Shown piece by piece: positions 5,835-57,024 of a stretch of 64,000 nt of DNA. The DNA lies in the NCBI RefSeq assembly GCF_014644535.1, contig NZ_BMKW01000011.1, positions 94,722-158,721 on the forward strand. The letters are read 5' to 3'. Made by a program: the position numbers and the translations under genes. The stretch comes from Neoroseomonas lacus. Its GTDB lineage: Bacteria > Pseudomonadota > Alphaproteobacteria > Acetobacterales > Acetobacteraceae. Under the pieces are notes generated by a model. That model had not been told where the DNA came from, did no database searches, and worked only from the letters and a program-made list of their open reading frames with translations. How positions within the stretch are numbered: position 1 is the stretch's first letter; the number at the start of each line of letters is the position of its first letter.

Positions 5835-6725
5835 TTGCGGTTTGGCATCGACCTCGGCGGCACCAAGATCGAAATTGTGGCACTGGACCGGGAGGGGGCG
5901 GTGCGCTTGCGCAAGCGCGTCGCCACGCCGTCCGGCTATGCCGCGACGGTCGAGACGATCGCCGCGCTGGTGCGCGATGCGGAGCACGAGACGGGCGGGC
6001 GCGGGACGGTCGGCGTCGGCATTCCCGGCAGCCTCAGCCCGGCCACCGGCCTGATGCGCAATGCCAATTCCCAGGCGCTGAACGGGAAGCCGCTGGACCG
6101 CGACCTCGGCGCCGCGATCGGCCGGGCGGTGCGCATCACCAACGACGCCAATTGCCTGGCGATGAGCGAGGCGGCGGATGGCGCCGGGGCGGGGTATCGC
6201 ACCGTCTTCGCCGTCATCATCGGCACCGGTTGCGGCGGTGGCATCGTCTCTTCCGGCCGGCTGCTGGACGGGCCGAACGGTACTGCGGGGGAATGGGGTC
6301 ACACGCCGCTGCCATGGATGCGGGCGGAGGAATTCCCCGGGCCGCGCTGCTGGTGCGGGCGAGACGGCTGCCTGGAGACCTTCCTGTCCGGCCCGGGCCT
6401 CGCCGCCGATTGCGACGGGCCGGGGGCACGCGATGCCGGGTCGATCCCGGCTCGCGCGGCGGCCGGGGAGGCCAAGGCGGCGGCGGCGCTGGCGCGGCAC
6501 ACGGACCGGCTGGCGCGCGCGCTCGGGCAGATCGCCAATATCCTCGACCCGGATGTGGTCGTGCTCGGCGGTGGCTTGTCGAATATGCAGCATCTGTACG
6601 TCGATGTGCCGCCGCTGATGGCGCGACACGTACTGGGCGACGTGGCGCGCACGCCGATCGTGCAGGCGAGGCACGGGGATTCGTCGGGCGTGTTCGGGGC
6701 GGCGCGGTTGTGGGATACGCCGTGA
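5835..6725 (+). CDS. ROK-family sugar kinase (fructokinase / N-acetylhexosamine kinase type)
   Basis: 296-residue cytoplasmic kinase. The start is TTG at 5835, supported by AGGAG inside the end of the previous gene, and the protein starts directly with the phosphate loop RFGIDLGGTKIE. Other marks are the catalytic Asp in ITNDANCLA (about 101-109), GEWGHTPLP with zinc-ligand His156, and the ROK zinc motif CWCGRDGCLE (172-181). Fructokinase (Mak) and N-acetylglucosamine kinase (NagK) share these features, so the sugar is not decided. It ends just before repeat element copy A. Confidence 0.88.
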   Translation: MRFGIDLGGTKIEIVALDREGAVRLRKRVATPSGYAATVETIAALVRDAEHETGGRGTVGVGIPGSLSPATGLMRNANSQALNGKPLDRDLGAAIGRAVRITNDANCLAMSEAADGAGAGYRTVFAVIIGTGCGGGIVSSGRLLDGPNGTAGEWGHTPLPWMRAEEFPGPRCWCGRDGCLETFLSGPGLAADCDGPGARDAGSIPARAAAGEAKAAAALARHTDRLARALGQIANILDPDVVVLGGGLSNMQHLYVDVPPLMARHVLGDVARTPIVQARHGDSSGVFGAARLWDTP

Positions 6726-6740
6726 GGCGCGGCGGTGGCA

Positions 6741-6969
6741 CGGAGAGGGGCGCCGCCCCTCTCCGGACCTCACCCCGCCAAAGGCCGGGAGGCCTTTGGA
6801 AACCGATACCTGGGGCGGGGCCAGGCCGTCATGCCGGCCCGCGCAAGACGCTCCGGGCGCTGGAGCGGGTCTCGGCACGTGGCCTTGCCGTGGGGCACGG
6901 CGCCAACAGATGGCAATCCAAAGGGCACTGCCCTTTGGTGGGGTGGTTTGGAGGGGCAACGCCCCTCCA
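6741..6969. repeat. Two-arm inverted palindromic element, copy A (229 bp)
   Basis: Complete copy. The left arm has an outer hairpin CGGAGAGGGGC-GCC-GCCCCTCTCCG (6741-6765), then CACCCCG and an inner hairpin CCAAAGGC-CGGGA-GGCCTTTGG (6778-6799), then AAACCGATAC. The right arm is the inverted counterpart: CGCCAACAGATGGC, inner hairpin CCAAAGGGC...GCCCTTTGG (6918-6938), GTGGGGTGG, and outer hairpin TGGAGGGGC-AAC-GCCCCTCCA (6949-6969). The core contains GGGTCTCGGC. It lies right after the ROK kinase stop and before a small membrane-protein gene. It may act as a terminator or mRNA-protecting structure; no T-run follows. Confidence 0.85.
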
Positions 6970-6987
6970 CGGCGGCGACCCGCCAGG

Positions 6988-7386
6988 ATGACGCCGGGCT
7001 TGACCTATGGCGGCCTCGCCTTCCTGGCCGGCGCGGTGCTGGGGCCGCTGCGCGAACTGATCCTTGCCCCACGGATCGGTGGATTGCCGGCGGCGCTTGC
7101 CGAAGCCGCCGCCATGGCCGCCTTGCTGTGGCTCGCCGCGCGGCATGTCATGGCGCGGCTGGTGCCGCCGATCCCGAAGCGGGTTCGAGCGACGGTGGCC
7201 GGGGTCGCCCTGCTGGTGGTGATCGCCCTGGATGTCCTGCTGCGCCTGGCCTTGCAGGCGAGCGGCCTCGCCGAGGGCCGCGCGCCGCGCAGCCCGGCGG
7301 AGCAGGCCGTCATGCTGCCGCTGCTCGCCTGGCTCGTCGTCTTGCCCTTCATCATGGGCCGCTGCCATGCCGACGCTGTGTCGTGA
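6988..7386 (+). CDS. Small integral membrane protein, unknown function
   Basis: 132-residue protein with four predicted membrane segments: near LTYGGLAFLAGAVLGPLREL (5-24), ALAEAAAMAALLWLAARHVM (about 36-55), ATVAGVALLVVIALDVLLRL (about 68-87) and VMLPLLAWLVVLPFIM near the C-terminus. The start at 6988 is the first in-frame ATG after repeat element A, preceded by a weak AGG. Its last 20 bp overlap the start of the DNA polymerase IV gene, so the two are probably co-transcribed. I do not recognise a specific family. Confidence 0.65.
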   Translation: MTPGLTYGGLAFLAGAVLGPLRELILAPRIGGLPAALAEAAAMAALLWLAARHVMARLVPPIPKRVRATVAGVALLVVIALDVLLRLALQASGLAEGRAPRSPAEQAVMLPLLAWLVVLPFIMGRCHADAVS

Positions 7387-8623
7387 CTGCCTGCACCGCG
7401 TCGAGCCCGCCGTCACGCGGTGCGTCGCCTGCGGGTCGCGCCGCGTCGTCTCGCACCCCGAACTGTTCCGGCTGACCGTCGCGCATGTCGATTGCGACGC
7501 CTTCTATGCCAGCGTCGAGAAACGCGACCGGCCGGAACTGCTGAGCCGCCCGGTGATCGTGGGTGGTGGCAAGCGCGGCGTGGTCTCGGCCTGTTGCTAC
7601 ATCGCGCGGACGCGTGGCGTGCGCAGCGCGATGCCGATGTTCAAGGCGCTCGCGGCCTGCCCGGATGCCGTGGTGATCAAGCCTGAGATGGCGAAATACG
7701 TCCATGAAGGCCGCCGCATCCGCACCATGATGGAGGCGCTGACGCCGCTGGTGCAGCCGATGTCGATCGACGAGGCGGTGCTCGACCTGGCGGGGACCGA
7801 GGCGCTGCACGGCGCGCCGCCGGCGGTGGTGCTGGCGCGCTTCGCCCTGGCGGTGGAACGCGAGGTCGGCGTTACCGTCTCGATCGGCCTGGCGGCGAAC
7901 CGGCTGATGGCGAAGCTCGCCGCCGAACGCGACAAGCCGCGCGGCTTCGCGGTGATCGGCGCCGATGAGGCCGCCGGATGGTTGGCGCCGCAGCCCGTCT
8001 CGCTGCTGCCCGGCGTCGGGCCGGCGATGGCCAAGCGGCTGCAGGCGGCGGGGTTCTCGACACTGGGGCAACTCGGCGCGCTGGAGCCGCGTGAGGCGAT
8101 GCGCCGGTTCGGTGATGAAGGGCCGGCGCTCGCCGCCCGCGCGCGGGGCGAGGATGCGCGGCGGGTGAACCCCGACCGCGAGACGAAATCCATCAGCGCC
8201 GAAACCACCTTCGAGACCGACATCGCCGCGCGGGAGGCGCTCGAAGCCCCGTTGTGGCGGTTGTGCGAGAAACTGGCGCGGCGGCTGACGGAGAAGGGCT
8301 TCGCCGCCGGTGGCGTCACGCTGAAACTGAAGACGGCCGCCTTCGCCACCCGCACGCGCGCGGCGCGCCTGCCGCAGCCGACGCGGCTGCCGGATGTGCT
8401 TTTCGCCGCCGTGCGGCCGCTGCTGGCGAAGGAGGCGGACGGCACGGCCTTCCGGCTGATCGGGATTGGCGCGCAGCCGCTGGCGGCGGCGGCGGACGCC
8501 GATCTCGGTGACCTCGCCGATCCGGAGGCGCCGAAGCGCGCGGCGCGCTGGGCGGCGGTGGAGACGCTGCGGGCGAAGTTCGGCGACGGCGCGGTGATGC
8601 GCGGGCGCGGGCTGCGGAAGTGA
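7367..8623 (+). CDS. dinB: DNA polymerase IV (Y-family) with N-terminal zinc-ribbon
   Basis: 418-residue translesion polymerase. The catalytic core begins VAHVDCDAFYASVE (about 38-51; Asp42 binds metal). It carries SMSIDEAVLDL-type catalytic acidic residues (found as MSIDEAVLDL), a helix-hairpin-helix LLPGVGPAMAKRLQAAGF and a little-finger domain ending near residue 400. Before the polymerase core is a short ribbon with Cys5, Cys8, Cys19 and Cys22 (CxxC...CxxC). The ATG at 7367 was chosen because it includes this ribbon. It is synthesized in the cytoplasm for error-prone bypass; no LexA box was identified. Confidence 0.92.
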   Translation: MPTLCRDCLHRVEPAVTRCVACGSRRVVSHPELFRLTVAHVDCDAFYASVEKRDRPELLSRPVIVGGGKRGVVSACCYIARTRGVRSAMPMFKALAACPDAVVIKPEMAKYVHEGRRIRTMMEALTPLVQPMSIDEAVLDLAGTEALHGAPPAVVLARFALAVEREVGVTVSIGLAANRLMAKLAAERDKPRGFAVIGADEAAGWLAPQPVSLLPGVGPAMAKRLQAAGFSTLGQLGALEPREAMRRFGDEGPALAARARGEDARRVNPDRETKSISAETTFETDIAAREALEAPLWRLCEKLARRLTEKGFAAGGVTLKLKTAAFATRTRAARLPQPTRLPDVLFAAVRPLLAKEADGTAFRLIGIGAQPLAAAADADLGDLADPEAPKRAARWAAVETLRAKFGDGAVMRGRGLRK

Positions 8624-8645
8624 GGCTGCGCCATAGGCGCGAAGA

Positions 8646-8871
8646 TTGGAGGGGCCTTGCCCCTCCAAACCACCCCACCAAAGGCCCGAGGCCTTTGGAA
8701 ACCGATACGTGGCGCAGGGCATGAAAGGCAGGACGGGTACCCGAATGAACGCTCGTGCCCAGCGCAGCTTTCGCAAGTGTTCCCTCCCTCATGCCCGGCA
8801 CCAGGTATTGGTGTCCAGAGGCCCTTAGGCCTTTGGTGGGGGTGGTCCGGAGGGGGCAAAGCCCTCTCCGG
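8646..8871. repeat. Two-arm inverted palindromic element, copy B (226 bp)
   Basis: Complete copy filling most of the 301-bp gap (8624-8924) between dinB and the FliI-type gene. The left outer hairpin is TTGGAGGGGC-CTT-GCCCCTCCAA (8646-8668), followed by ACCACCCCA and inner hairpin CCAAAGGC...GCCTTTGG, then AAACCGATAC. The right arm differs in its inner part (GGTGTCCAGAGGCCCTTAGGCCTTTGG) and ends in outer hairpin CCGGAGGGGGC...GCCCTCTCCGG (8847-8871). The 53 bp between the element and the next start hold only a weak CTCCTGG-type site. Confidence 0.85.
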
Positions 8872-8924
8872 TTTCCAACGCCGATTAACGCCCCGCCAAG
8901 CTCTCCTGGCGCAACTATCGCCGC

Positions 8925-10250
8925 ATGCCGCCAGACCTAGCCGCCGCTGCCGCCGTCATCGACGCTCTGCCATACGAGACCATCCATGGCTCCGTCGCCG
9001 GGCTTGGCGGGCTCGGCGTCACGCTGGAGGGTTTCGGCCCCTTGGCGGCGATCGGCGACAGGGTACGGCTGGAAGCACCCAACGGCATCTCGATTCTGGC
9101 CGAGATCGCCGCCTTCCGCGACGGGCGCGCCGAGGCCATCGCCATGGGCCCGCTGGCTGGCCTGTCGGATGGGGTGCGCGCGGTACTGGCGCCGCGCCCA
9201 GCGCTGGCGGTCTCCGAGGCCTGGCTCGGCCGTGTGCTCGACCCGATGGGGCAGCCGATGGATGGCCTGCCTGCCCCCGTGCCCGGGGCGCGCCCGCGCG
9301 TGACCCATGCGCCCGCCCCTCCGGCGGGGCAGCGGGCGCGGCTTGGCCCGCGCATGGCGCTGGGGGTCCGGGCGCTCGACCTGTTCACGCCGGTACGGCA
9401 GGGGCAGCGGCTGGGGCTGTTCGCCGCCTCGGGCGTCGGCAAATCGACGCTGATGGCGATGCTGGCTGGCGGTGTGGAGGCGGAGGTCATCGTCTTCGCT
9501 CTGGTCGGCGAGCGCGGGCGGGAATTGCGCGAATTCATCGAGGACGACCTCGGCCCCGAGCGGCTGGCCAGGTCCGTGGTGGTCTGCGCGACCTCCGACA
9601 CCGCGGCGCCGGTGCGGCGCGAGGCCGCCTATGCCGCCATGACCGTCGCCGAGCATTTCCGCGACCAGGGCCGCCAGGTGCTGCTGCTGATGGACAGCGT
9701 GACGCGCTTCGCCCTGGCGCTGCGCGAGATCGGGCTGGCAGTACGGGAGCCACCGGCGACGCGCGGCTTCCCGCCCTCGGTCTTCACCGAATTGCCGCGG
9801 CTGCTGGAACGCGCCGGGCCGGGGCCGGATGGCTGCGGCGGCGCGATCACTGCCCTGTTCACCGTGCTGGTCGAAGGCGACGACCATGACGAGCCGATCG
9901 CCGATGCAGTGCGCGGCATCCTCGATGGTCATGTCGTGCTCGACCGCCGCATCGCCGAGGCGGGCCGCTATCCGCCCATCGATGTGTTGCGGTCGCTGTC
10001 GCGCACGGCGCCGGCGGTGCTTGACCCGCATGAGCGGCCGTTGGTGGCCGAGGCGCGGCGGGTTCTCTCAACCTTTGGCGAGGTGAGGGATCTGGTGCGG
10101 CTGGGGGCCTATCGCAGCGGGAGCGACCCGGTTTCGGATGATGCGGTGCGGCTGGCCCCGGCAATCGAGGCGGTGCTGGCGCAGGGCAAGTCCGAGCCGA
10201 GCGATCCGGACCAGGCCTTCGGTGCCTTGGCCGTGGCGCTGGGCGGGTAG
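8925..10250 (+). CDS. fliI: FliI/YscN-type secretion ATPase (flagellum-specific ATP synthase)
   Basis: 441-residue cytoplasmic ATPase related to F1 beta subunits, which energises flagellar (or type III) protein export. Walker A is AASGVGKS (167-174), Walker B is VLLLMD (252-257) followed by SVTRFALALREIGLA, the stretch typical of FliI. The N-terminal barrel (1-95) and C-terminal helical domain are both present, so the protein is full length. No other flagellar or injectisome gene is nearby, so the gene is an orphan here. The flanks are a repeat element and a convergent Bug gene. Confidence 0.85.
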   Translation: MPPDLAAAAAVIDALPYETIHGSVAGLGGLGVTLEGFGPLAAIGDRVRLEAPNGISILAEIAAFRDGRAEAIAMGPLAGLSDGVRAVLAPRPALAVSEAWLGRVLDPMGQPMDGLPAPVPGARPRVTHAPAPPAGQRARLGPRMALGVRALDLFTPVRQGQRLGLFAASGVGKSTLMAMLAGGVEAEVIVFALVGERGRELREFIEDDLGPERLARSVVVCATSDTAAPVRREAAYAAMTVAEHFRDQGRQVLLLMDSVTRFALALREIGLAVREPPATRGFPPSVFTELPRLLERAGPGPDGCGGAITALFTVLVEGDDHDEPIADAVRGILDGHVVLDRRIAEAGRYPPIDVLRSLSRTAPAVLDPHERPLVAEARRVLSTFGEVRDLVRLGAYRSGSDPVSDDAVRLAPAIEAVLAQGKSEPSDPDQAFGALAVALGG

Positions 10251-10279
10251 CGTGACAACCGGCCGGCCTGTCGCGGCCT

Positions 10280-11254
10280 TCAATCCACCCGGATATTGCC
10301 GACGCGGATCACCTCCCGCCACCGGGTCAACTCGTCGCGGATCAGGGTGGTGTAGCCTTCGGCGCCCATCGTGCCGGGGCGTACGCCGATGCTGGCGAAG
10401 CGCTGCTGAACCGCGTCGCTGGTCAGCGCCGCGCCGATCTCCGCCTCCCAGCGTGCGGCGATCTCGGACGGGATTCCGGCCGGGGTGGAGAAGCCGAACC
10501 AATTGGTCGAGGTGACGGTGGCGAGGCCCGCCTCGGCGAAGGTCGGCACGTCGGGCAGGGCGGGCGAACGCTCCGCCTCGCTGGTCGCGATCGGCCGCAT
10601 GCGGCCGCCACGGATGTTGCCGATGGCGGTCGGCAGGCTTTCCATCAGCGCGGGGATCTGCCCGCCCATCAGGTCGGTCATCGCCGGGGCCGAACCGCGA
10701 TAGGGCACATGCGTCAGCTCGACGCCGGCCGTGCGCGCAAGCAATTGCCCGATCAGATGGTTCATCGTGCCATTGCCGCCGGAGCCGTAGGTGATCTCGC
10801 CCGGCCGCGACCGCGCCAGCGCCAGCAGTTCCGCGACGTTGGCGACGGCGACATTCGGCCCGACGATCAGCACGGAGGGAAAGGTGCCGACCAGGTGGAT
10901 ATGGGTAAAATCCGCCAGCGGGTCGTAGGGCACATTGGCGTAGAGCACGGGCCCGATGCCATGCGAGGCCGCCGAGGACATCATCACGATATGCGTGTCG
11001 CCGCGCGCCTTGGCGACCAGGTCCGCGCCGAGCATGCCGCCGGCGCCGGGACGGTTCTCGATGACGATGGGTTGGCCGAGCTTGTTGCCGAAATGCTCGC
11101 CCAGCGTGCGGGAGAGAATGTCCGCCGCGCCACCGGGCGGGAAGTTCACGATCCAGCGGATCGGCCGCGCCGGCCAGGCCTGCGCGGCGGCGATGCGAGG
11201 TGCGGCGAGCAGCGGCGCGGCGAGCAGCGTTCGGCGAGCGATGGTGATGGACAT
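10280..11254 (-). CDS. Bug/TctC-family periplasmic solute receptor
   Basis: 324-residue secreted protein. The ATG at 11254 is chosen because CCGGAGGAAACC precedes it and the product then starts with signal peptide MSITIARRTLLAAPLLAAPRIA. The mature part opens WPARPIRWIVNFPPGGAADIL and contains IVIENRPGAGGMLGADLVAK, the two landmarks of this family. It is divergent from a cytosine-deaminase-like amidohydrolase gene 110 bp away. A shared promoter region suggests it may bring in that enzyme's substrate, which is inference only. Confidence 0.9.
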   Translation of the reverse strand: MSITIARRTLLAAPLLAAPRIAAAQAWPARPIRWIVNFPPGGAADILSRTLGEHFGNKLGQPIVIENRPGAGGMLGADLVAKARGDTHIVMMSSAASHGIGPVLYANVPYDPLADFTHIHLVGTFPSVLIVGPNVAVANVAELLALARSRPGEITYGSGGNGTMNHLIGQLLARTAGVELTHVPYRGSAPAMTDLMGGQIPALMESLPTAIGNIRGGRMRPIATSEAERSPALPDVPTFAEAGLATVTSTNWFGFSTPAGIPSEIAARWEAEIGAALTSDAVQQRFASIGVRPGTMGAEGYTTLIRDELTRWREVIRVGNIRVD

Positions 11255-30427: not shown

Positions 30428-30479
30428 ATGCGCGGAATGAACGGGCGACATGCCCGGACCCTCGGGAAGGAGAGCCCGC

Positions 30480-31142
30480 ATGCTGTTCAGACGTCTGGTC
30501 ATCGCCGCTGCCGCCGTTCTCGCCATGGGGGGCCTGGTCCCCGTGGCGCAGGCGCAGACCGGCGACCCATCCTTCAACCTGGTAAACCGAAGCAACCGGG
30601 TGATCTACGAGGCCTACGCCTCGCCCTCCTCGGACAGCAACTGGGGCCAGGACCGGCTGGGCCAGAACATCGTGCCGGCGGGGCGCAACTTCGTCATCCG
30701 CCTGCCGCAGGGCGAATGCATCTACGACCTGCGCGTCGTCTACGACCGCCAGGGCGGCCCGCCCGAGGAACGCCGCAACGTCAACCTGTGCAACCTGACC
30801 GAGGTCGTCTTCGACGGCCGGCCGCAGCAGGGCGGGCAGCAGCGGCAGGCGCCGCAGCAGGGCCAGACCCAGGGCCCGCGCGGCAACCCGTCCTTCAACC
30901 TGGTGAACCAGGGGCAGGTTGTGGTGATGGAGGTCTATGCCTCGCTGGCCACCGACCAGAACTGGGGCCCCGACCGGCTTGGCAATGACACCGTTGCGCC
31001 GGGCGCCACCTTCCCGATCCGGCTGCCGGAAGGCGACTGCATGTACGATATGCGCTTCGTCTACCAGAACGGCCAGTCGCAGGAACGCCGCGGGGTGAAC
31101 CTGTGCGATGTGACCAACGTGACGGTGCCGCTGCCGCAGTAA
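30480..31142 (+). CDS. Secreted protein with tandem copies of an unknown two-cysteine domain (domain X)
   Basis: 220-residue protein with signal peptide MLFRRLVIAAAAVLAMGGLVPVAQA and AAGGAG before ATG 30480. It holds two copies of a domain of about 80 residues (29-113 and 137-220) joined by a Gln/Gly-rich linker (116-134). Each copy runs FNLVN...EAYAS...NWGxDRLG...PxGxxFxIRLPxGxC-YDxR and ends ERRxVNLC. Cysteines are 80/104 and 187/209, probably two disulfides in the periplasm. The same domain ends the TIR protein at 53674-55011 and forms the small protein at 54948-55319. I do not know its function. Confidence 0.8.
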   Translation: MLFRRLVIAAAAVLAMGGLVPVAQAQTGDPSFNLVNRSNRVIYEAYASPSSDSNWGQDRLGQNIVPAGRNFVIRLPQGECIYDLRVVYDRQGGPPEERRNVNLCNLTEVVFDGRPQQGGQQRQAPQQGQTQGPRGNPSFNLVNQGQVVVMEVYASLATDQNWGPDRLGNDTVAPGATFPIRLPEGDCMYDMRFVYQNGQSQERRGVNLCDVTNVTVPLPQ

Positions 31143-50345: not shown

Positions 50346-51014
50346 CTACCGCGGCAGCGTCTCGACGAAATACTCGTAGTTATCGGCATTCTCCGCCGCC
50401 TGGGCGGCGTTCTCCTTCGCCAGCCGCATCGCCCCGCTCGGCCGATAGGCATGGTCCACCGTATTCGCCGCGATGTGCGAGGTTTCGTGGATCAGGATGC
50501 CCCAACGCGCATCCGTCCCCTCCATCCGCGCGCGGAAATAGGGCGGGCAGAGGCCGAGCACGAAGTCCCGGCCCCGCGCATAGGCGAAGCGCCCGCCCGG
50601 GCAGCCGGCCGGGTCGTTGCAGCGGATATCGACCGCTTCCATATCCGCCAGCCGCGCCGCCGTGACCTCCAGCGAGAGGCGGATCGTCTTGCGCGGCGCA
50701 TCGCCGAACCAGCGCCGGACATGGGGGTCGTCGGGCCGGTCGCGCACCAGCGCGATGGCGGCGGCAAGCCGCGTGCGCGCCTCGGCCAACGCGTCGTCGA
50801 TCAGCGCGCGATGGGCCGGCGCGCAGGCGGGGCCCGGCATGTCGGCGGCGGTCACCACGGCCGGCGGCGGCTTCTCGGTGGGCAGCGGCACCTGCAGCAC
50901 CTGGCGGTTCGGCTCCAGCGCCGGCGGTTTCTCGGTCGGCAGGCCGGACGGCACATCCGTCGCCGCCATCAACAGCAGCGCGGCGGGCAGCAGGGGGAAC
51001 AACAGTCGGTTCAT
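50346..51014 (-). CDS. Secreted M35-type (aspzincin-like) zinc metallopeptidase
   Basis: 222-residue protein with a signal peptide (MNRLLFPLLPAALLLMAATD). It has a repeated LPTEKPP motif (25-31 and 44-50) before the catalytic domain. The zinc site is LIHETSHIAANTVDHAY (174-190): HETSH (176-180) with the third ligand probably Asp187. It is followed by AMRLAKENAAQAAENADNYEYF, very like deuterolysin / peptidyl-Lys metalloendopeptidases. It probably acts in the periplasm or outside the cell. It is downstream of the Crp-like gene (46-bp gap) on the same strand. Confidence 0.78.
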   Translation of the reverse strand: MNRLLFPLLPAALLLMAATDVPSGLPTEKPPALEPNRQVLQVPLPTEKPPPAVVTAADMPGPACAPAHRALIDDALAEARTRLAAAIALVRDRPDDPHVRRWFGDAPRKTIRLSLEVTAARLADMEAVDIRCNDPAGCPGGRFAYARGRDFVLGLCPPYFRARMEGTDARWGILIHETSHIAANTVDHAYRPSGAMRLAKENAAQAAENADNYEYFVETLPR

Positions 51015-51060
51015 CGCGCTCGATCATGCCACGGCGCGAGCGGCGGCGCGCTGAATTGCT

Positions 51061-51780
51061 TCACATGCCGTCCCGCGGCCCGGCGGCGACGGCGGCCAGC
51101 CCGGCCTCATCCAGCACGAACAGAAACGCCTTCTCGGTGTCGTAGGCCACGAGGTTCGACCCGCGCCAGGCATTCAGGATCGAGATGATGCTGCGCGTCG
51201 TCGCCCCCAGTAGGTCGGCGAGGTCGCCCTGCCGGAAACGCGCTGCCAGCCGCACGCCGCGCTCGGTCTTCACGCTGTCGGTCTTGAGCAGGTAAAGCAC
51301 CTGGCGCGCGAGCCGCACCTCGAGCGGCGCGAAGGTCGCATCCTGCAGCAGCCCGAAGGTGCGCCGCAGCCGGGCCGAGAGCATCCGCGCCAGCGCCAGG
51401 CCGAGCGCCGGTTCGCTCTCCGCCGTCTCCAGGAAGGCGGCGGCCGGGATGCGGGCGAGTTTCACATCTCCCATCACCAGCGCATCGGCGCTGCGCGCGG
51501 CGCCGTCGAGCACGCCGATCTCGCCGAATATGTCACCGGCGCGGAACACCTCGACCATCAGCCGCTTGGCCGCGGTGTCCGGGGCGCCGACGCGCACCCG
51601 CCCGCGGCCCTCGAGCACGGCATAGACGGCATCGGGCGCATCGCCCTGGGCGAAGAGCGGCGCGCCATCCGGCGGGGCGACGCGCCGCGCGCCCTCGGCC
51701 AGCCGCGCCAGCGCCGAAGGCGGCAGGTCGCGGAACAAGGTCATGCCGCCGAGTTCCTCGGCGAGGCGCGTGTCGCTCAT
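51061..51780 (-). CDS. Crp/Fnr-family cyclic-nucleotide-type transcription regulator
   Basis: 239-residue regulator. Residues 10-125 form a cyclic-nucleotide-binding barrel with GDIFGEIGVLDGAARSADALV (about 83-103), the phosphate-binding cassette region. A dimer helix follows, and a winged helix-turn-helix RQGDLADLLGATTRSIISIL (about 181-200). ATG 51780 overlaps the stop of the cyclase gene (ATGA). The enzyme that makes a cyclic nucleotide and the protein likely to sense it are therefore translated together. There are no cysteines suited to an Fnr iron-sulfur cluster. Confidence 0.88.
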   Translation of the reverse strand: MSDTRLAEELGGMTLFRDLPPSALARLAEGARRVAPPDGAPLFAQGDAPDAVYAVLEGRGRVRVGAPDTAAKRLMVEVFRAGDIFGEIGVLDGAARSADALVMGDVKLARIPAAAFLETAESEPALGLALARMLSARLRRTFGLLQDATFAPLEVRLARQVLYLLKTDSVKTERGVRLAARFRQGDLADLLGATTRSIISILNAWRGSNLVAYDTEKAFLFVLDEAGLAAVAAGPRDGM

Positions 51781-53498
51781 GCCATATCCTCCTCGAAGCC
51801 CGAGCGCCGCAGCGCATAGAGCGGCATTGACCCGAAACTCTTGGCCGTCGGGATGTGGCCGGCATAGTCGCAGGCGAGACCAGCCCCGCGCGGCAGCAGC
51901 GCGACCTCGCAGGCAAAGGCTTCGGTGGCGAAGATCCGCCCCGGCGGCGTGACCGGTTCGATCCGCGCCGCGCGCGTCATCGCCCTGCCGGAATATTTGT
52001 GCGCGCGCTGTACCGAATCGTACACCGGCAGCATCGGGCCAAAATCCAGCGCGAAGCGCGGGTGGATCGGCGGTTCCTGGGTCTCCAGCGCGGCGCGCAT
52101 GTCGAAGGCGCAGGCGGCGGCGCCGGTTATCTCCTCGAAGGTGATCTGCACCGCGTCGCCCCAGCAGTTGCAATAGGTGAAGGGGTGGCGTTCCAGCGCC
52201 GCGCCCATCGCCACCAGCGGGCCTTCGTAGAAGCGCGCCAAGCCCTCATCGTCCAGCGCGCTGAAGCGCGGCAGGTCGCCGAACAGCACCGCCATGGGCC
52301 GCCGCCGCGGCTCGGGCAGCGCCTCGACCGGACCGTTGCGCGGCCAGGGCCAACCGAGGAACAGCGACTGCCCGCCGGCGTTCGTCCAGGCCGCCACATC
52401 CGCGCCGGTGCCGGCCGACCCGCGCGAGGGCACCTGGTCCCAGGCGGCGACCTGCACCGCCGTCCCGTCGCGATGGCGGGCATGCAGCCGCGCCAGCCCC
52501 ATGGCGCGCCGCGCCGCCATGGCGAGGTGCAGGTCATCGCCGGCGAAGGGCCGTTCATCGAGATGCATCAGGCGCACGCGCGGCAACAGCGCACGGTAGC
52601 GCGCGACCCAGCGTTCGCCGGCCGGCAGGACGGACGCGGCCTCATAGGTGTCGGCGTCGCAGGGCAGCACGACGGTCGGTGTCACCCCGGCGCGCAGCAG
52701 CGCCTCGACCGCCAGGATGTCGAGCCCGGCGGCCAGCCCGCCGAACGCCATGCCGACGCGTTGCGCGGCAATGGTCGCATCGAGCGTCGCGCTGATCAGC
52801 CCTTCGATCGCCGGGTCGTCCTGGCCGGGCTTGGGCATGTGGCCGGTGTAGTGCAGTACAGCCGGGATGCGCAGCGCATCGACGATGGCGGGCGACACGC
52901 CGAGCGCGATCGCCTCCCGCCGCAACTGCCGTCGCGTGGTGGCGCGGGCCGACAGATCCGACCCCGCGCGCGCCTCGGCTTCCTCCAGCGCGGTGCGGGC
53001 GGCGAGTTCGCGCCCGGCCAGCAGTTGCGCCTCGGCCTCGGTCGCCGCCGACCAGTAGTCGCCTGCATCGCGATGGCCGCGCAGCACGTCCTCGGCGATC
53101 GCCACCGCACGCGGCCGGTCGCCGCCCAGCAGATGCATGGCGGCGGCATTGACGCCGTGCCAGCCGGCGCCGCCGCGACGCCATAGATCCTCATAGCGCC
53201 GCGCCGCCTCGGCGAGCAGCGGGCCGCGCGCGGCGACCGGGCGTTCGAAGGCGCGGTCCTTGATCAGCCGGGCGCCGAGCGCGGCGATCTCCGGGTCGGG
53301 TTCGGCATCGAGGCGGAGCTGGTGGAACAGGTCGAGCGCGCGGCCCGTCGCGCCGGCGCGCGCGATGGTCAGCGTGGCGCGATACCGCAGCGCGGGGTCG
53401 TCGGGGTGGTCGGCCATGGCGGCCATGGCCCTGTCATGGGCCGAAAGGAGGAGGCCTTCAGCCTCCAGGGCCAGGACCTCCGCAAGGGAGTCGGACAT
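51777..53498 (-). CDS. TPR / SLOG-like / class III nucleotide cyclase protein
   Basis: 573-residue soluble protein. Residues 1-210 are helical repeats (TPR or TRAFs-binding type). Residues 215-385 look like a Rossmann SLOG-type domain: GMAFGGLAAGLDILAVEALLRAG then TVVLPCD (248-281). Residues 400-540 are a class III cyclase domain with metal Asp408 (VLFGD) and Asp448 (GDAV) and Arg512 (AARIE). The usual base-selecting Lys is Asn444 and the transition-state Asn is Thr508, so the nucleotide may not be ATP or activity may be lost. ATG 53498 follows CAGGAA. Coupled to the Crp-like gene. Confidence 0.82.
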   Translation of the reverse strand: MSDSLAEVLALEAEGLLLSAHDRAMAAMADHPDDPALRYRATLTIARAGATGRALDLFHQLRLDAEPDPEIAALGARLIKDRAFERPVAARGPLLAEAARRYEDLWRRGGAGWHGVNAAAMHLLGGDRPRAVAIAEDVLRGHRDAGDYWSAATEAEAQLLAGRELAARTALEEAEARAGSDLSARATTRRQLRREAIALGVSPAIVDALRIPAVLHYTGHMPKPGQDDPAIEGLISATLDATIAAQRVGMAFGGLAAGLDILAVEALLRAGVTPTVVLPCDADTYEAASVLPAGERWVARYRALLPRVRLMHLDERPFAGDDLHLAMAARRAMGLARLHARHRDGTAVQVAAWDQVPSRGSAGTGADVAAWTNAGGQSLFLGWPWPRNGPVEALPEPRRRPMAVLFGDLPRFSALDDEGLARFYEGPLVAMGAALERHPFTYCNCWGDAVQITFEEITGAAACAFDMRAALETQEPPIHPRFALDFGPMLPVYDSVQRAHKYSGRAMTRAARIEPVTPPGRIFATEAFACEVALLPRGAGLACDYAGHIPTAKSFGSMPLYALRRSGFEEDMA

Positions 53499-53673
53499 CG
53501 GTTCCTGCCGCGCGTGTGGCGTGATCCTAGAAGGCGGGCGCCGCGCCGGGCAATGTGTGGTCTCAGATTCTGTTAGGGAACACGCCATCCGGCGCCGGAC
53601 GTTCCAAACGGACTCCAAGCGCATGGCGCTGTCGCGCCGCCTGTGCGAGAAACCGCACGTCCGGACGCCGCCC
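53499..53673. promoter_or_regulatory. Divergent promoter region between cyclase and TIR genes
   Basis: 175 bp shared by two oppositely directed genes. It holds the 12-bp palindrome TCCGGCGCCGGA (53589-53600). There is also a wider inverted pair, with CCGGACG near 53595 and CGTCCGG near 53659. No clear -35/-10 pair was recognised. Confidence 0.4.
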
Positions 53674-55011
53674 ATGCCACATGACGTCTTCCTGAGCTAC
53701 GCGTCTACCGACCGTGCCGCAGCCGAGGCTGTCTGCGCGGCGCTGGAGACGCGCGGCATCCGCTGTTGGATCGCCCCGCGCGACGTGCCCGCCGGCGCCG
53801 ATTGGGGCGAGGCTATCCTGACCGCGATCGGCCGCGCCCACGCCATGGTGCTGGTGCTGTCCCGCGCCACCGCGAATTCCGTCCATGTCAGGAACGAGGT
53901 CGTCACCGCGGTCTCGCAATCACTCGCCCTGGTGCCGGTGCGGATCGAGGATTGCCAGCCGGGCGGCGCCCTGCGGCTGCATCTGGCCGGGTCGCATTGG
54001 CTCAATGTCTTCCCCATGCCGATCGAACAGCATGCGGATGTGCTGGCGGTCGGCGTGCGCCTGGCGCTGGCGGCGGATGCGACGGTCGAGATCCCGCGCG
54101 CCCAGGCGATGGCCCTGGTCGCGGCGGCGCGTGCCTCCCATGCGGCGGCCCCTGCCGTGGCGCCGCCCGCGCGAGCTGCGCCACCGCGCGTGGCGCCGGC
54201 CCGTGCCGTGCCGGCTGGCGTAGCGGTTGCCCAGGCCTCGGCCGAACCGACCGGGTCGCGCCGCCGCGCTGGGGCGGGGGTGATGCTTGGGCTTGGCGTG
54301 GTGCTGTTACTGATGGTGCTTGGTGCCGCGGCCTGGTTCCTGGAGCCGCGCCTGCGCAGCTTGTTGGGCGCCGCGCCCGCCGCCCCGTCGGCGGTGACGG
54401 GCACGGCGGCGCCCGGGCGTGCCGATGCTGCGCCGTCCGCGATGACGGACAGGGCCTCGGACCGATCGGCCGACCCGATCGAGGCCGCTGTCGCCGACCG
54501 GGCCCGGCATGCCGGGGTCGACCCCGCCCGAAACGGTGGTGCCGTCGCGACGCCGGCCGATCCACCACCGCGTTCACTCGCGCCGTCGGCGTCGCTGGCC
54601 GGACTCGGCGGACTCATCCCGCTGCCGGATGCGGGCGTGCCTGCACCGCTGGCCTCGGTGCCTCGACCCACTGCGGCGCCATCATCCCCCGACCCGCTGC
54701 CGGCCAGCATCCCCCCGCCGGTTGCCGCCCCGGCGACGCGGCTGCTGAACGTGGCGAGCATCACCATCTCCCGCCTCTTCGTCTCCCCGGTGAGCGCGGG
54801 GGTGGGCCGCGAGGATTGGCTCGGCAATGCGCAGATCACGCCGGGCAATGCGGTGCAGATCCGCGCGCCGGAGGGGCAGGGTTGCGTCTTCAACATCCGC
54901 GCTGTCTATGTTGGTGGCAGGACAGAGGATCGTCCGGGGGTGGATCTTTGCGCGGCGCCGGAACTGCGTTTCGAGGGTGGCAAGAACGCGGGTGGGGCAT
55001 CCTCGCGCTGA
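53674..55011 (+). CDS. TIR-domain membrane protein with C-terminal periplasmic domain X
   Basis: 445-residue protein. A TIR domain fills residues 1-130: HDVFLSYASTDRAAAE (3-18), CWIAPRDVPAGADWGEAI (31-48) and SVHVRNEVV with the likely NAD-cleaving Glu75. An Ala/Pro-rich linker leads to one membrane helix (201-223). A long Pro/Ala/Ser stretch follows (about 230-355) and then domain X (357-445, Cys404 and Cys426). TIR would be in the cytoplasm and domain X outside. ATG 53674 starts directly before the TIR fold. It is divergent from the cyclase and overlaps a secreted domain X gene. Confidence 0.82.
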   Translation: MPHDVFLSYASTDRAAAEAVCAALETRGIRCWIAPRDVPAGADWGEAILTAIGRAHAMVLVLSRATANSVHVRNEVVTAVSQSLALVPVRIEDCQPGGALRLHLAGSHWLNVFPMPIEQHADVLAVGVRLALAADATVEIPRAQAMALVAAARASHAAAPAVAPPARAAPPRVAPARAVPAGVAVAQASAEPTGSRRRAGAGVMLGLGVVLLLMVLGAAAWFLEPRLRSLLGAAPAAPSAVTGTAAPGRADAAPSAMTDRASDRSADPIEAAVADRARHAGVDPARNGGAVATPADPPPRSLAPSASLAGLGGLIPLPDAGVPAPLASVPRPTAAPSSPDPLPASIPPPVAAPATRLLNVASITISRLFVSPVSAGVGREDWLGNAQITPGNAVQIRAPEGQGCVFNIRAVYVGGRTEDRPGVDLCAAPELRFEGGKNAGGASSR

Positions 55012-55319
55012 GCCTGCTGGCCGCGCCCGCCATGGCGCAACAGGACCAGCGACCGCACCCCTTCATGGTGATGAACCAAGGCCCGGCGACCATCGTCGGG
55101 CTCGAATTGTCGTCGGTGGGGCAGGGGCAGTTCGGCCACTCCCTGATCGGTCGCGTCGAATTGCCGCCGGGCAATGCCCTGCATGTCACCCCGCCCTCCG
55201 GCTCCGGCTGCCTCAACGACCTGCGCATTCGTTGGTCCGACGGACGTGCCGAGGAGCGCCCGCGCGAGGACCTTTGCCAGGCCCAGCGCGTGCTGCGCCT
55301 GACCACCCCATCCCCCTGA
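54948..55319 (+). CDS. Small secreted single domain X protein, overlapping the TIR gene
   Basis: A second reading frame begins inside the end of the TIR gene. With TTG 54948 as start the product is 123 residues with a credible signal peptide (Arg near the N-terminus, ILALSLLAAP core, AMA-QQ cut after residue 30). The mature part is one domain X: HPFMVMNQG...PPGNALHV...SGCLNDLRIRWSDGRAEERP...LC. The only in-frame ATG (55032) would remove the signal. Overlap with the TIR gene is 64 bp. The start codon is an inference. Confidence 0.6.
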   Translation: MRGAGTAFRGWQERGWGILALSLLAAPAMAQQDQRPHPFMVMNQGPATIVGLELSSVGQGQFGHSLIGRVELPPGNALHVTPPSGSGCLNDLRIRWSDGRAEERPREDLCQAQRVLRLTTPSP

Positions 55320-55335
55320 AGGACGCATCGCCGAC

Positions 55336-57024
55336 ATGACCCTGGATTGGACCCTGCGCGCCGGCACGCGCTTCACCACCGAGAAGCGTCCCGCGATGGG
55401 CACCAAGGGCATGGTGGTGACGAACCACCCGCTCGCCTCCGCCGCCGGCGCGGAGATGCTGGCGGCCGGCGGCAACGCCGTGGATGGCGCGATCGCCGCG
55501 CTGTTCACCCTCACCGTCGTCGAGCCGATGATGGTCGGGCTACTCGGCGGCGGCACCGCGCATCTGCGCCTGCCGGACGGCACGCATACCGTGATCGACG
55601 GCATGGCGACCTGTGCGGCCGCCGCGCGGGCCGACATGTTCACCCCGGCCCAGCCGGACAATCCGCGCGCGCTGGAATCGGTCGGCCGCACCAATACGGT
55701 GGGCGGGCTGTCGGTGGCGACGCCGGGCAACCTCAAGGCGTGGTGCGAGACGCTGGCGCGCTTCGGGTCGTTCTCGCTCGCCGATGTCATGGCGCCGGCG
55801 ATCCGCCATGCCGAACGCGGTTACCGCGCGACGCCCTACCTCGCCGAATGCGCCAAGGAAGCCGCGCCCGACATGGCGAAGGACCCGGCGATCAGCGCCA
55901 TCTATCTGCCTGGTGGGATGGCGTTGCAGCCCGGCCATCGCGTCGTGCAGTCGGACTATGCCGAGACGCTGAAGGCGATCGCGCAGCAGGGTGCGGCGGC
56001 GCTGGATGGTGCGCTCGGCCAGGCCGTTGCCGATGGCATCGCGCGCGCCGGCGGCATCGTCACGGTGGATGACATCCGCGGCTATCGCACCGTGGAACGC
56101 ACCCCGCTGCGCGGCCCGTATCGCGACGTCGAGATCGTGCTTCCGCCGCCGCCGGCATCGTCCGGCGTGCATGTGTTGCAGATGCTGAACATGCTCTCGG
56201 GCTGGGACCTGCGCGCGCTCGGCTTCGGGTCTGCCGACACGCTGCACCTGCTCGCCGAATGCCTGAAGATCGCCTTCGCCGACCGCGCCGCCGCCTCGGG
56301 CGACCCGGCCTTCGTGGATGTGCCGGTGGAGAAACTCATCTCCGCCGCCTATGGCGCCGAGCGCCGCGCGCTGATCGACATGGCCCGCGCCCAGGTCTGG
56401 GGTCCCGGCGTCGCGGCTGAAAGCCCGAACACCACCCACATCACCGTGGCGGATGGGGAAGGGCGCATCGTCTGCTCGACCCAGACCATCAACTCCACCT
56501 TCGGCGCGCGCTTCATCGTCCATGGCACCGGGATGATCCCGAACAACTACATTGCCACCTTCGACCCGCGGCCGGGGCGCGCGCTGTCCATCGCGCCCGG
56601 CAAGCGCGTCACCACCTCGATGGCGCCGATGATCGTGCTGCGCGACGGCAAGCCGGCCTATGCCCTCGGCATGCCCGGCGGGTTGCGCATCTTCGGATGT
56701 GTCATGCAGGGCATGCTGAACTTGGTCGATCACGGCATGTCGTTGCAGGAAGCGGTGGAAGCGCCGCGGCTGTGGACGCAGGGCGATGCCGTGGAGATGG
56801 AGCCGGCCTTCGGCGAGGCGGTGCGCGCGGCGCTGGCCGAACGCGGGCACGAGATCGCCCGCATGCCGCATGTCGGCGGCGGGATGGGGGCGATCGCCTT
56901 CCACCCAGACGGCACGATGGAGGGTGCCGCCTGCTGGCGCGCGGATGGGACGGCGATCGGAGTCGGCGGCGGGTTGGCGCGGGAAGGGGTGCGGTTTTGG
57001 CCGGATTCGGCCGGGGCGCGGTGA
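55336..57024 (+). CDS. ggt: Gamma-glutamyltransferase family protein
   Basis: 562-residue Ntn-hydrolase. It contains MVVTNHPLASAAGAEMLAAGGNAVDGAIAA-like N-terminal sequence (about 27-55, Ggt signature), RTPLRGPYRD and the self-cleavage site NTTHITVADGEG (Thr366/Thr367). Then follow NSTFGARF and GKRVTTSMAPMIVLRDGKP (about 418-436). It should split into two chains and transfer or hydrolyse gamma-glutamyl groups. No signal peptide is visible, so a cytoplasmic role is likely. It starts 16 bp after the domain X gene. Confidence 0.9.
   Translation: MTLDWTLRAGTRFTTEKRPAMGTKGMVVTNHPLASAAGAEMLAAGGNAVDGAIAALFTLTVVEPMMVGLLGGGTAHLRLPDGTHTVIDGMATCAAAARADMFTPAQPDNPRALESVGRTNTVGGLSVATPGNLKAWCETLARFGSFSLADVMAPAIRHAERGYRATPYLAECAKEAAPDMAKDPAISAIYLPGGMALQPGHRVVQSDYAETLKAIAQQGAAALDGALGQAVADGIARAGGIVTVDDIRGYRTVERTPLRGPYRDVEIVLPPPPASSGVHVLQMLNMLSGWDLRALGFGSADTLHLLAECLKIAFADRAAASGDPAFVDVPVEKLISAAYGAERRALIDMARAQVWGPGVAAESPNTTHITVADGEGRIVCSTQTINSTFGARFIVHGTGMIPNNYIATFDPRPGRALSIAPGKRVTTSMAPMIVLRDGKPAYALGMPGGLRIFGCVMQGMLNLVDHGMSLQEAVEAPRLWTQGDAVEMEPAFGEAVRAALAERGHEIARMPHVGGGMGAIAFHPDGTMEGAACWRADGTAIGVGGGLAREGVRFWPDSAGAR

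Follow-up and report, generated by a model that had tools for sequence, protein, structure and literature searches.

A TIR, class III cyclase, and Crp locus of Neoroseomonas lacus that probably relays signals and is probably no standard phage-defence system

In the window analysed here (the whole stretch of 64,000 nucleotides from Neoroseomonas lacus, contig NZ_BMKW01000011.1 of assembly GCF_014644535.1, positions 94,722 to 158,721), two divergent gene runs bring together a class III nucleotide cyclase, a Crp-type regulator, and a TIR protein with a predicted membrane helix. On the minus strand, the gene of the 573-residue cyclase protein P0002 (51777..53498) is followed by that of the Crp-type regulator P0001 (51061..51780), the two open reading frames (ORFs) sharing a 4 bp overlap, and, in last place, by the gene of a secreted M35 (aspzincin) metallopeptidase (50346..51014, 222 residues; Pfam PF14521, E-value 7.9e-23) with a HETSH motif and an N-terminal signal-like segment. 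Across a divergent intergenic region (53499..53673), the plus-strand run comprises the TIR gene (53674..55011, 445 residues), ending in a domain that we call X, the gene of a secreted stand-alone X protein (54984..55319; signal-like segment ..ILALSLLAAPAMA, with TTG 54948 as a possible start), and, 16 bp after the end of the latter, a gamma-glutamyltransferase-like (GGT-like) gene (55336-57024), the name of which is a reading of its sequence. The five genes from the peptidase to the stand-alone X protein are where an earlier note on this DNA had placed them, down to the overlap of the cyclase and crp ORFs and the divergence of the TIR gene.

The cyclase protein contains three regions. The N-terminal TPR-S region (residues 1-200; 52899..53498, minus strand) has a fold that resembles the central regulatory region of ASK1. 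The middle region (residues ~211-380; 52359..52868, minus strand) is a Rossmannoid domain according to the α/β order of an AlphaFold2 (AF2) model, and is termed SLOG-like here. The C-terminal region (residues 396-573; 51780..52313, minus strand), supported by column counts and a PDB profile search, is the cyclase domain. A Pfam scan of P0002 itself returns no cyclase call; the profile of its family hits class III cyclases of the PDB at an E-value of 3.5e-13, and the domain combines the cyclase homology fold with two metal aspartates, D408 (52275-52277) and D448 (52155-52157), as expected of a class III enzyme. D408, D448, and R512 are identical in 73/73 aligned cyclase rows. Canonical class III enzymes recognize the base with Lys/Asp (ATP) or Glu/Cys (GTP) and possess a catalytic Asn. 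The present family lacks this adenylyl or guanylyl cyclase set: what we take to be the position of the base-recognition Lys is occupied by Asn444 (Asn in 71/73 rows), and that of the catalytic, transition-state Asn presumably by Thr508 (Ser/Thr in 71/73 rows). Passages of PMC11224242 name other residues for the makers of cyclic CMP (cCMP) and cyclic UMP (cUMP). Concerning the middle domain, hhalign reports a 49% probability with the LOG family (E-value 1.8e-4) and 0.2-1% with the cyclase, TIR, and Crp profiles; as a yardstick, DprA and LOG, which are true relatives, reach only 14%. A DprA-type SLOG identity was rejected (0.5% probability). The best hit of the domain in a PDB profile search is a LOG enzyme at an E-value of 0.79, below significance, Pfam returns no convincing match, and the VIA-align list, filled by cyclase matches, holds no SLOG entry and carries no weight either way.

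The TIR gene is read from ATG 53674, a start compatible with all 15 sequences compared; a start 17 codons upstream, at ATG 53623 (protein P0003, 462 residues), is in frame in 9 of the 15 and was dropped. The TIR domain (53680..54012; Pfam TIR_2, E-value 8e-22) is followed by a Pro/Ala linker, a single transmembrane helix read from the sequence (VMLGLGVVLLLMVLGAAAWFL, 54279..54341), a second Pro/Ala linker, and domain X (54724..54972). Pfam and PADLOC scans of P0003 gave TIR matches only and no cyclic-nucleotide-binding domain (CNBD); its score with the Pfam ThsB_TIR profile is slightly under the cut-off (20.2 vs 21.2 bits). The candidate catalytic residue is Glu75 (Glu92 in P0003 numbering; codon 53896-53898), and the glutamate of the WxxxE motif, given as the catalytic one of TIR domains in passages of PMC11374754, is Glu in 57/57 TIR domains of different sequence groups. 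The Glu of a "WGEAI" motif was discarded as catalytic candidate: L100-L102 have Gln in its place, and the published site is WxxxE. Because one side of the membrane helix is Arg-rich, the protein is predicted to be oriented N-in and C-out, the TIR domain facing the cytosol and X the periplasm. In 9/13 loci of the Neoroseomonas group, a crude hydropathy window scan places a membrane segment at the corresponding position; in the remaining 4, the contig ends before it. Domain X has no Pfam match in P0003 or P0004, and it recurs in other Acetobacteraceae proteins, with several X-like copies per genome; on these grounds, it seems to be an envelope domain specific to the lineage. Elsewhere in the window (30450-31142, plus strand), an apparently secreted protein carries two copies of X.

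P0001 contains a CNBD and a Crp helix-turn-helix (HTH) domain (Pfam), as do Crp/Fnr regulators, and retains the GE and RSA motifs in the alignment. Its C-helix exhibits a Phe after the Thr, where E. coli CRP has Ser128 (PMC11224242, seen in passages). In the divergent region, a TGTGC(N)AGAA element (53642-53651), 32-33 bp upstream of the TIR ATG, is present in 13/15 sequences and may be a regulatory site; it occurs twice more in the 64-kb window.

Within the genus, the cyclase, TIR-X, and Crp genes are found at high identity in 15/35 genomes, own included, and the full block is missing from the other 20/35. Separation of the genes in relatives, named beforehand as what would speak against a module, was not observed: the order Crp, cyclase, TIR is identical in 14/14 Neoroseomonas-group relatives. 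The M35 gene accompanies them in 13/14, the contig of the 14th coming to an end. The GGT-like gene and that of the secreted X protein do so in 9/9 relatives whose contig extends beyond the TIR gene (5 contigs end inside it). Among the 14 relatives, identities amount to 87-92% for Crp, 76-88% for the cyclase, and 85-93% for the TIR domain, as compared with 85-92% for the flanking GGT-like and 80-86% for the flanking MFS proteins. Crp, cyclase, and TIR are as conserved as the neighbouring metabolic genes, and the locus is stable in its group; X and M35 are more variable. The M35 gene is present as a tandem duplicate in four relatives (L067, L070, L071, and L072). Since the GGT-like gene occurs in 20/21 sampled same-genus genomes, nine of which lack the block, the block was gained or lost beside a stable gene. 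In six genomes without the full block (G002, G005, G007, G008, G015, and G020), the GGT-like gene shares its contig with an X-domain gene ~5 kb away, which suggests a conserved region that either received the block by insertion or lost it. One of these genomes, G020, encodes a 31%-identical relative of the cyclase protein fused to an N-terminal Crp (CNBD and HTH) in an ORF of 889 residues (L078, 8362-11031). This fusion comprises Crp, TPR-S, and SLOG-like parts, and its aligned cyclase region has a Glu at the first metal aspartate, the second being matched only after a shift by one in the alignment; a cyclic mononucleotide (cNMP) may be its ligand and not its product. Two ORFs upstream of it look like dynamin-type GTPases.

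To look further afield, GTDB contigs were scanned, with matches in 318 stretches, among which 247 were relatives; the best 80 loci were kept, a similarity-biased choice made up of 13 loci of the Neoroseomonas group, excluded from the counts, and 67 others. Distances refer to stop-to-stop ORFs. A TIR ORF is found anywhere in the fetched flank of 41/67 loci, within 1.5 kb of the cyclase in 35/67, and within 200 bp in 28/67. About 0.03 would be expected within 1.5 kb, from a background of 65 PF13676 matches in 142 genomes with an assumed mean size of 2.85 Mb and a TIR profile differing from that used for the loci. A cNMP-binding ORF is found in 12/67 loci and within 1.5 kb in 6/67, vs 0.35 expected from 305 matches in 58 genomes (165.5 Mb). 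The related loci are not independent, and the Poisson values are indicative only. On the cyclase tree, a quick tree with 18/70 inner branches open, TIR adjacency is seen in 40/73 rows and requires at least 15 presence changes (gains or losses), and TIR orientation at least 23 changes; the partners occur in four orientations, and their TIR sequences fall into groups that differ visibly. Of the 40 rows with a TIR, 17 have its ORF upstream of the cyclase ORF and on the cyclase strand, in many cases abutting or overlapping it; a cNMP ORF at 1.5 kb or less accompanies a single one of the 17, L099. That TIR and cyclase have re-paired repeatedly speaks most strongly for a functional link between them, and the synteny and wide linkage together reject a chance neighbourhood. 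The pair is found in Pseudomonadota, Actinobacteria, and Acidobacteria according to the record titles of metagenome-assembled genomes, the binning of which may err. The earlier note makes no mention of this pairing in distant bacteria.

The TIR partners are diverse. Hydropathy predicts a membrane segment in 28/35 of the adjacent ones, distant from the TIR domain in the large partners L099 and L110. Among nine partners scanned, the non-TIR parts comprise LprI (L128) and SH3_3 with YARHG (L159), both counted as outer parts, TPR (L149), and WD40 (L107, L109, and weakly L155), and nothing known in L101, L111, and L153. Apart from lineage-specific genes, no other neighbour recurred at the distant loci among the clusters displayed, many of which are antisense ORFs. 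Crp linkage also occurs on its own: in the distant genus of G088, where 5/6 species possess the cyclase, a crp-like ORF overlaps the cyclase in L168, L170, and L171, and no TIR is found near it in the fetched flanks. In L079 (G061), a cytochrome P450-like protein with cNMP-binding domains (6349-8688), the P450 part being read from sequence, is divergent from the TPR-S cyclase (8797-10872) and is possibly another direct reader of the cyclase product.

The earlier note proposed a signalling or defence module. The conserved module stands, and so do two of its remarks, that the layout is not a standard Pycsar (no CNBD in the TIR, and a DNA-binding Crp as regulator) and that it is sensible to read the TIR as envelope-facing. 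The defence part found no support, and neither did a defence island: none of the eight neighbour genes matches a PADLOC model at an E-value of 1e-5, no relative was found in 50,697 phage records, and none was confirmed in IMG/VR. At an E-value of 0.1, P0002 matches none of the PADLOC families, in a library that may not cover every PycC clade; P0001 hits the PycTIR and PycC models with its CNBD portion, and the TIR weakly matches several defence TIR models (best E-value 4e-9). Cyclase relatives occur in 4 plasmid records at an E-value of 1e-10; of two viewed, one is devoid of annotation and the other, a mobilizable plasmid of Caballeronia SBC2 (L223, 1-8611), encodes TIR and DUF4231 genes a few kb from a TPR-S cyclase relative, a conflict-system-like setting. 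The stability of the locus in its group and the presence of the cyclase in 5/6 species of another genus also speak against defence; on the other side stand this plasmid relative and the 20 same-genus genomes without the full block, and relatives elsewhere may have a role in defence. Whatever purpose the locus serves now, it plausibly originated in conflict, because components of the ASK signalosome are said to derive from bacterial conflict systems in the portion of PMC8195603 consulted.

The locus thus probably relays signals and is probably no standard phage-defence system. We favour, with a probability of roughly 0.4, a relay from receptor to transcription in which two nucleotide messengers act one after the other. 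In it, the inner membrane would hold the TIR-TM-X protein, with the TIR on the inner side and both X and the secreted X protein on the outer side; an envelope signal would make the TIR domains assemble and convert NAD to an ADP-ribose-type messenger; this would be bound by the SLOG-like domain of the TPR-S cyclase, like the SLOG of Thoeris ThsA, and switch the cyclase on; and the resulting cyclic mononucleotide would bind the co-encoded Crp and change transcription, the locus itself (M35 peptidase, X, and GGT-like gene) being a plausible target. The observed basis is the gene order, the linkage, the domains, the conserved candidate catalytic residues, and the recurrent TIR-cyclase and Crp-cyclase linkage, from which we infer the enzyme activities, ligands, signal direction, and targets. 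The order from TIR to cyclase is suggested because the cyclase bears a nucleotide-sensor-like domain (closest to LOG) and the TIR no CNBD; on the same grounds, the parsimonious flow starts at the TIR, passes through the cyclase, and ends at Crp, opposite to that of Pycsar. The relay also draws on the membrane segments predicted in 28/35 adjacent TIR partners and on the conserved TGTGC(N)AGAA element. A SLOG domain senses TIR products in Thoeris, according to passages of PMC10022894.

Several observations weigh against this relay. In an even sample of the class, where 26/385 genomes possess the cyclase and the flanks of each of these were inspected, a TIR lies near 6/26 cyclases (own, G057, G062, G382, G168, and G290) and a cNMP protein near 6/26 (own, G061, G088, G312, G215, and G290), so that most of these cyclases lack an adjacent TIR and either partner is dispensable. 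Seven of the 35 adjacent TIR partners have no membrane segment, and those with WD40 or TPR parts are not obviously envelope sensors. The SLOG identity of the middle domain is assigned with moderate confidence, given the hhalign values with LOG and DprA, and LOG-like SLOG domains include enzymes and not sensors alone (PMC9503650, in the passages seen). With Ser/Thr at the catalytic Asn site, the activity of the cyclase may be altered, and the C-helix of the Crp departs from CRP at the adenine contact. Lastly, no full Crp palindrome was seen in the divergent region of the 15 sequences, and the idea of a conserved one was rejected.

The absence of this palindrome also counts against a somewhat unlikely alternative, that the genes are co-regulated and chemically unlinked, the TPR-S cyclase and Crp forming an intracellular stress switch of which TIR-X, X, M35, and the GGT-like protein are outputs, the TIR providing no input to the cyclase. 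The divergent arrangement, the conserved TGTGC(N)AGAA element ahead of the TIR gene, possibly part of a Crp site, and the M35 and GGT-like genes within the syntenic block fit such a switch, as do the TIR-less loci in which crp-like ORFs overlap the cyclase and the single Crp fusion; however, the upstream same-strand TIR rows point to a TIR-cyclase link that is independent of a local Crp. The wide conservation of the WxxxE glutamate fits enzymes better than scaffolds and speaks against the improbable reading that the TIR is a non-enzymatic membrane scaffold recruiting or clustering the TPR-S cyclase by protein contact, with a SLOG-like domain that senses something unrelated. Such a role would agree with the resemblance of TPR-S to the regulatory region of ASK1, which is an assembly platform. 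It would also agree with signalling of TIR domains by assembly, as described in passages of PMC11364022. Abortive infection of the Pycsar type, in which infection would activate the cyclase and its cyclic nucleotide the TIR, with destruction of NAD, has an equally poor chance. The locus does unite a TIR, a class III cyclase, and a cNMP-binding protein, the PADLOC matches of P0001 and the TIR and the plasmid relative point the same way, and so does the conflict ancestry claimed for ASK signalosome parts, but the TIR has no CNBD, P0002 matches no PADLOC model, the neighbours gave no PADLOC hit, there was no phage or confirmed viral hit, and the locus is stable in its group.

If the relay from TIR to cyclase to Crp is generalized, the loci of several phyla would form a bacterial Toll-like receptor relay, in which single-pass TIR receptors with exchangeable outer domains, an NAD-derived messenger, a SLOG-bearing cyclase, a non-canonical cyclic mononucleotide, and Crp exert transcriptional control instead of suicide, a doubtful proposal at this stage. 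Bacterial TIR enzymes are mainly known from suicidal phage defence or as virulence factors. The relay, if true, would place TIR chemistry in ordinary signalling, through an envelope-facing receptor feeding a cyclase and a transcription factor, would link the messenger worlds of TIR and class III cyclases, and would offer a bacterial counterpart to the Toll-like receptor and ASK1 architectures. It raises two testable questions, the ligand of cyclase-adjacent SLOG-like domains and the cNMP made by the unusual active site. No description of a TIR paired with a TPR-S/SLOG/cyclase protein was found in the titles, abstract starts, and passages covered, and prior notice is possible.

Compared with known systems, the locus shares with Pycsar (PycC with PycTIR or PycTM) a class III cyclase and a TIR in one locus along with a CNBD protein. 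However, the CNBD is here on a DNA-binding Crp and not on the TIR, as it would be in an effector, the cyclase carries TPR-S and SLOG-like domains without a PADLOC model, and the proposed signal order is reversed; a standard Pycsar is rejected on this domain layout. Like Thoeris (ThsB TIR with ThsA SIR2-SLOG), it combines a TIR that has the catalytic glutamate with a partner bearing a SLOG-like domain, for which the TIR product would be the ligand. In contrast to Thoeris, this partner is a class III cyclase with TPR-S, devoid of any SIR2 match and unlike a ThsA that joins a SIR2 or transmembrane effector to a SLOG or Macro domain, the TIR is membrane-anchored with an outer domain, a Crp follows, and no defence context was found. 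With respect to the central regulatory region of ASK1 (MAP3K5) and to TPR-S proteins, the present protein differs by its SLOG-like and cyclase domains, and the other ASK1 domains (kinase and DRHyd) are absent. Finally, in bacteria where a crp gene lies beside an adenylyl cyclase gene, a cNMP synthase adjoins its likely receptor, as it does here; the present locus is set apart by Asn444 and Thr508 in the cyclase, the Phe in the Crp C-helix, and the TIR gene alongside.

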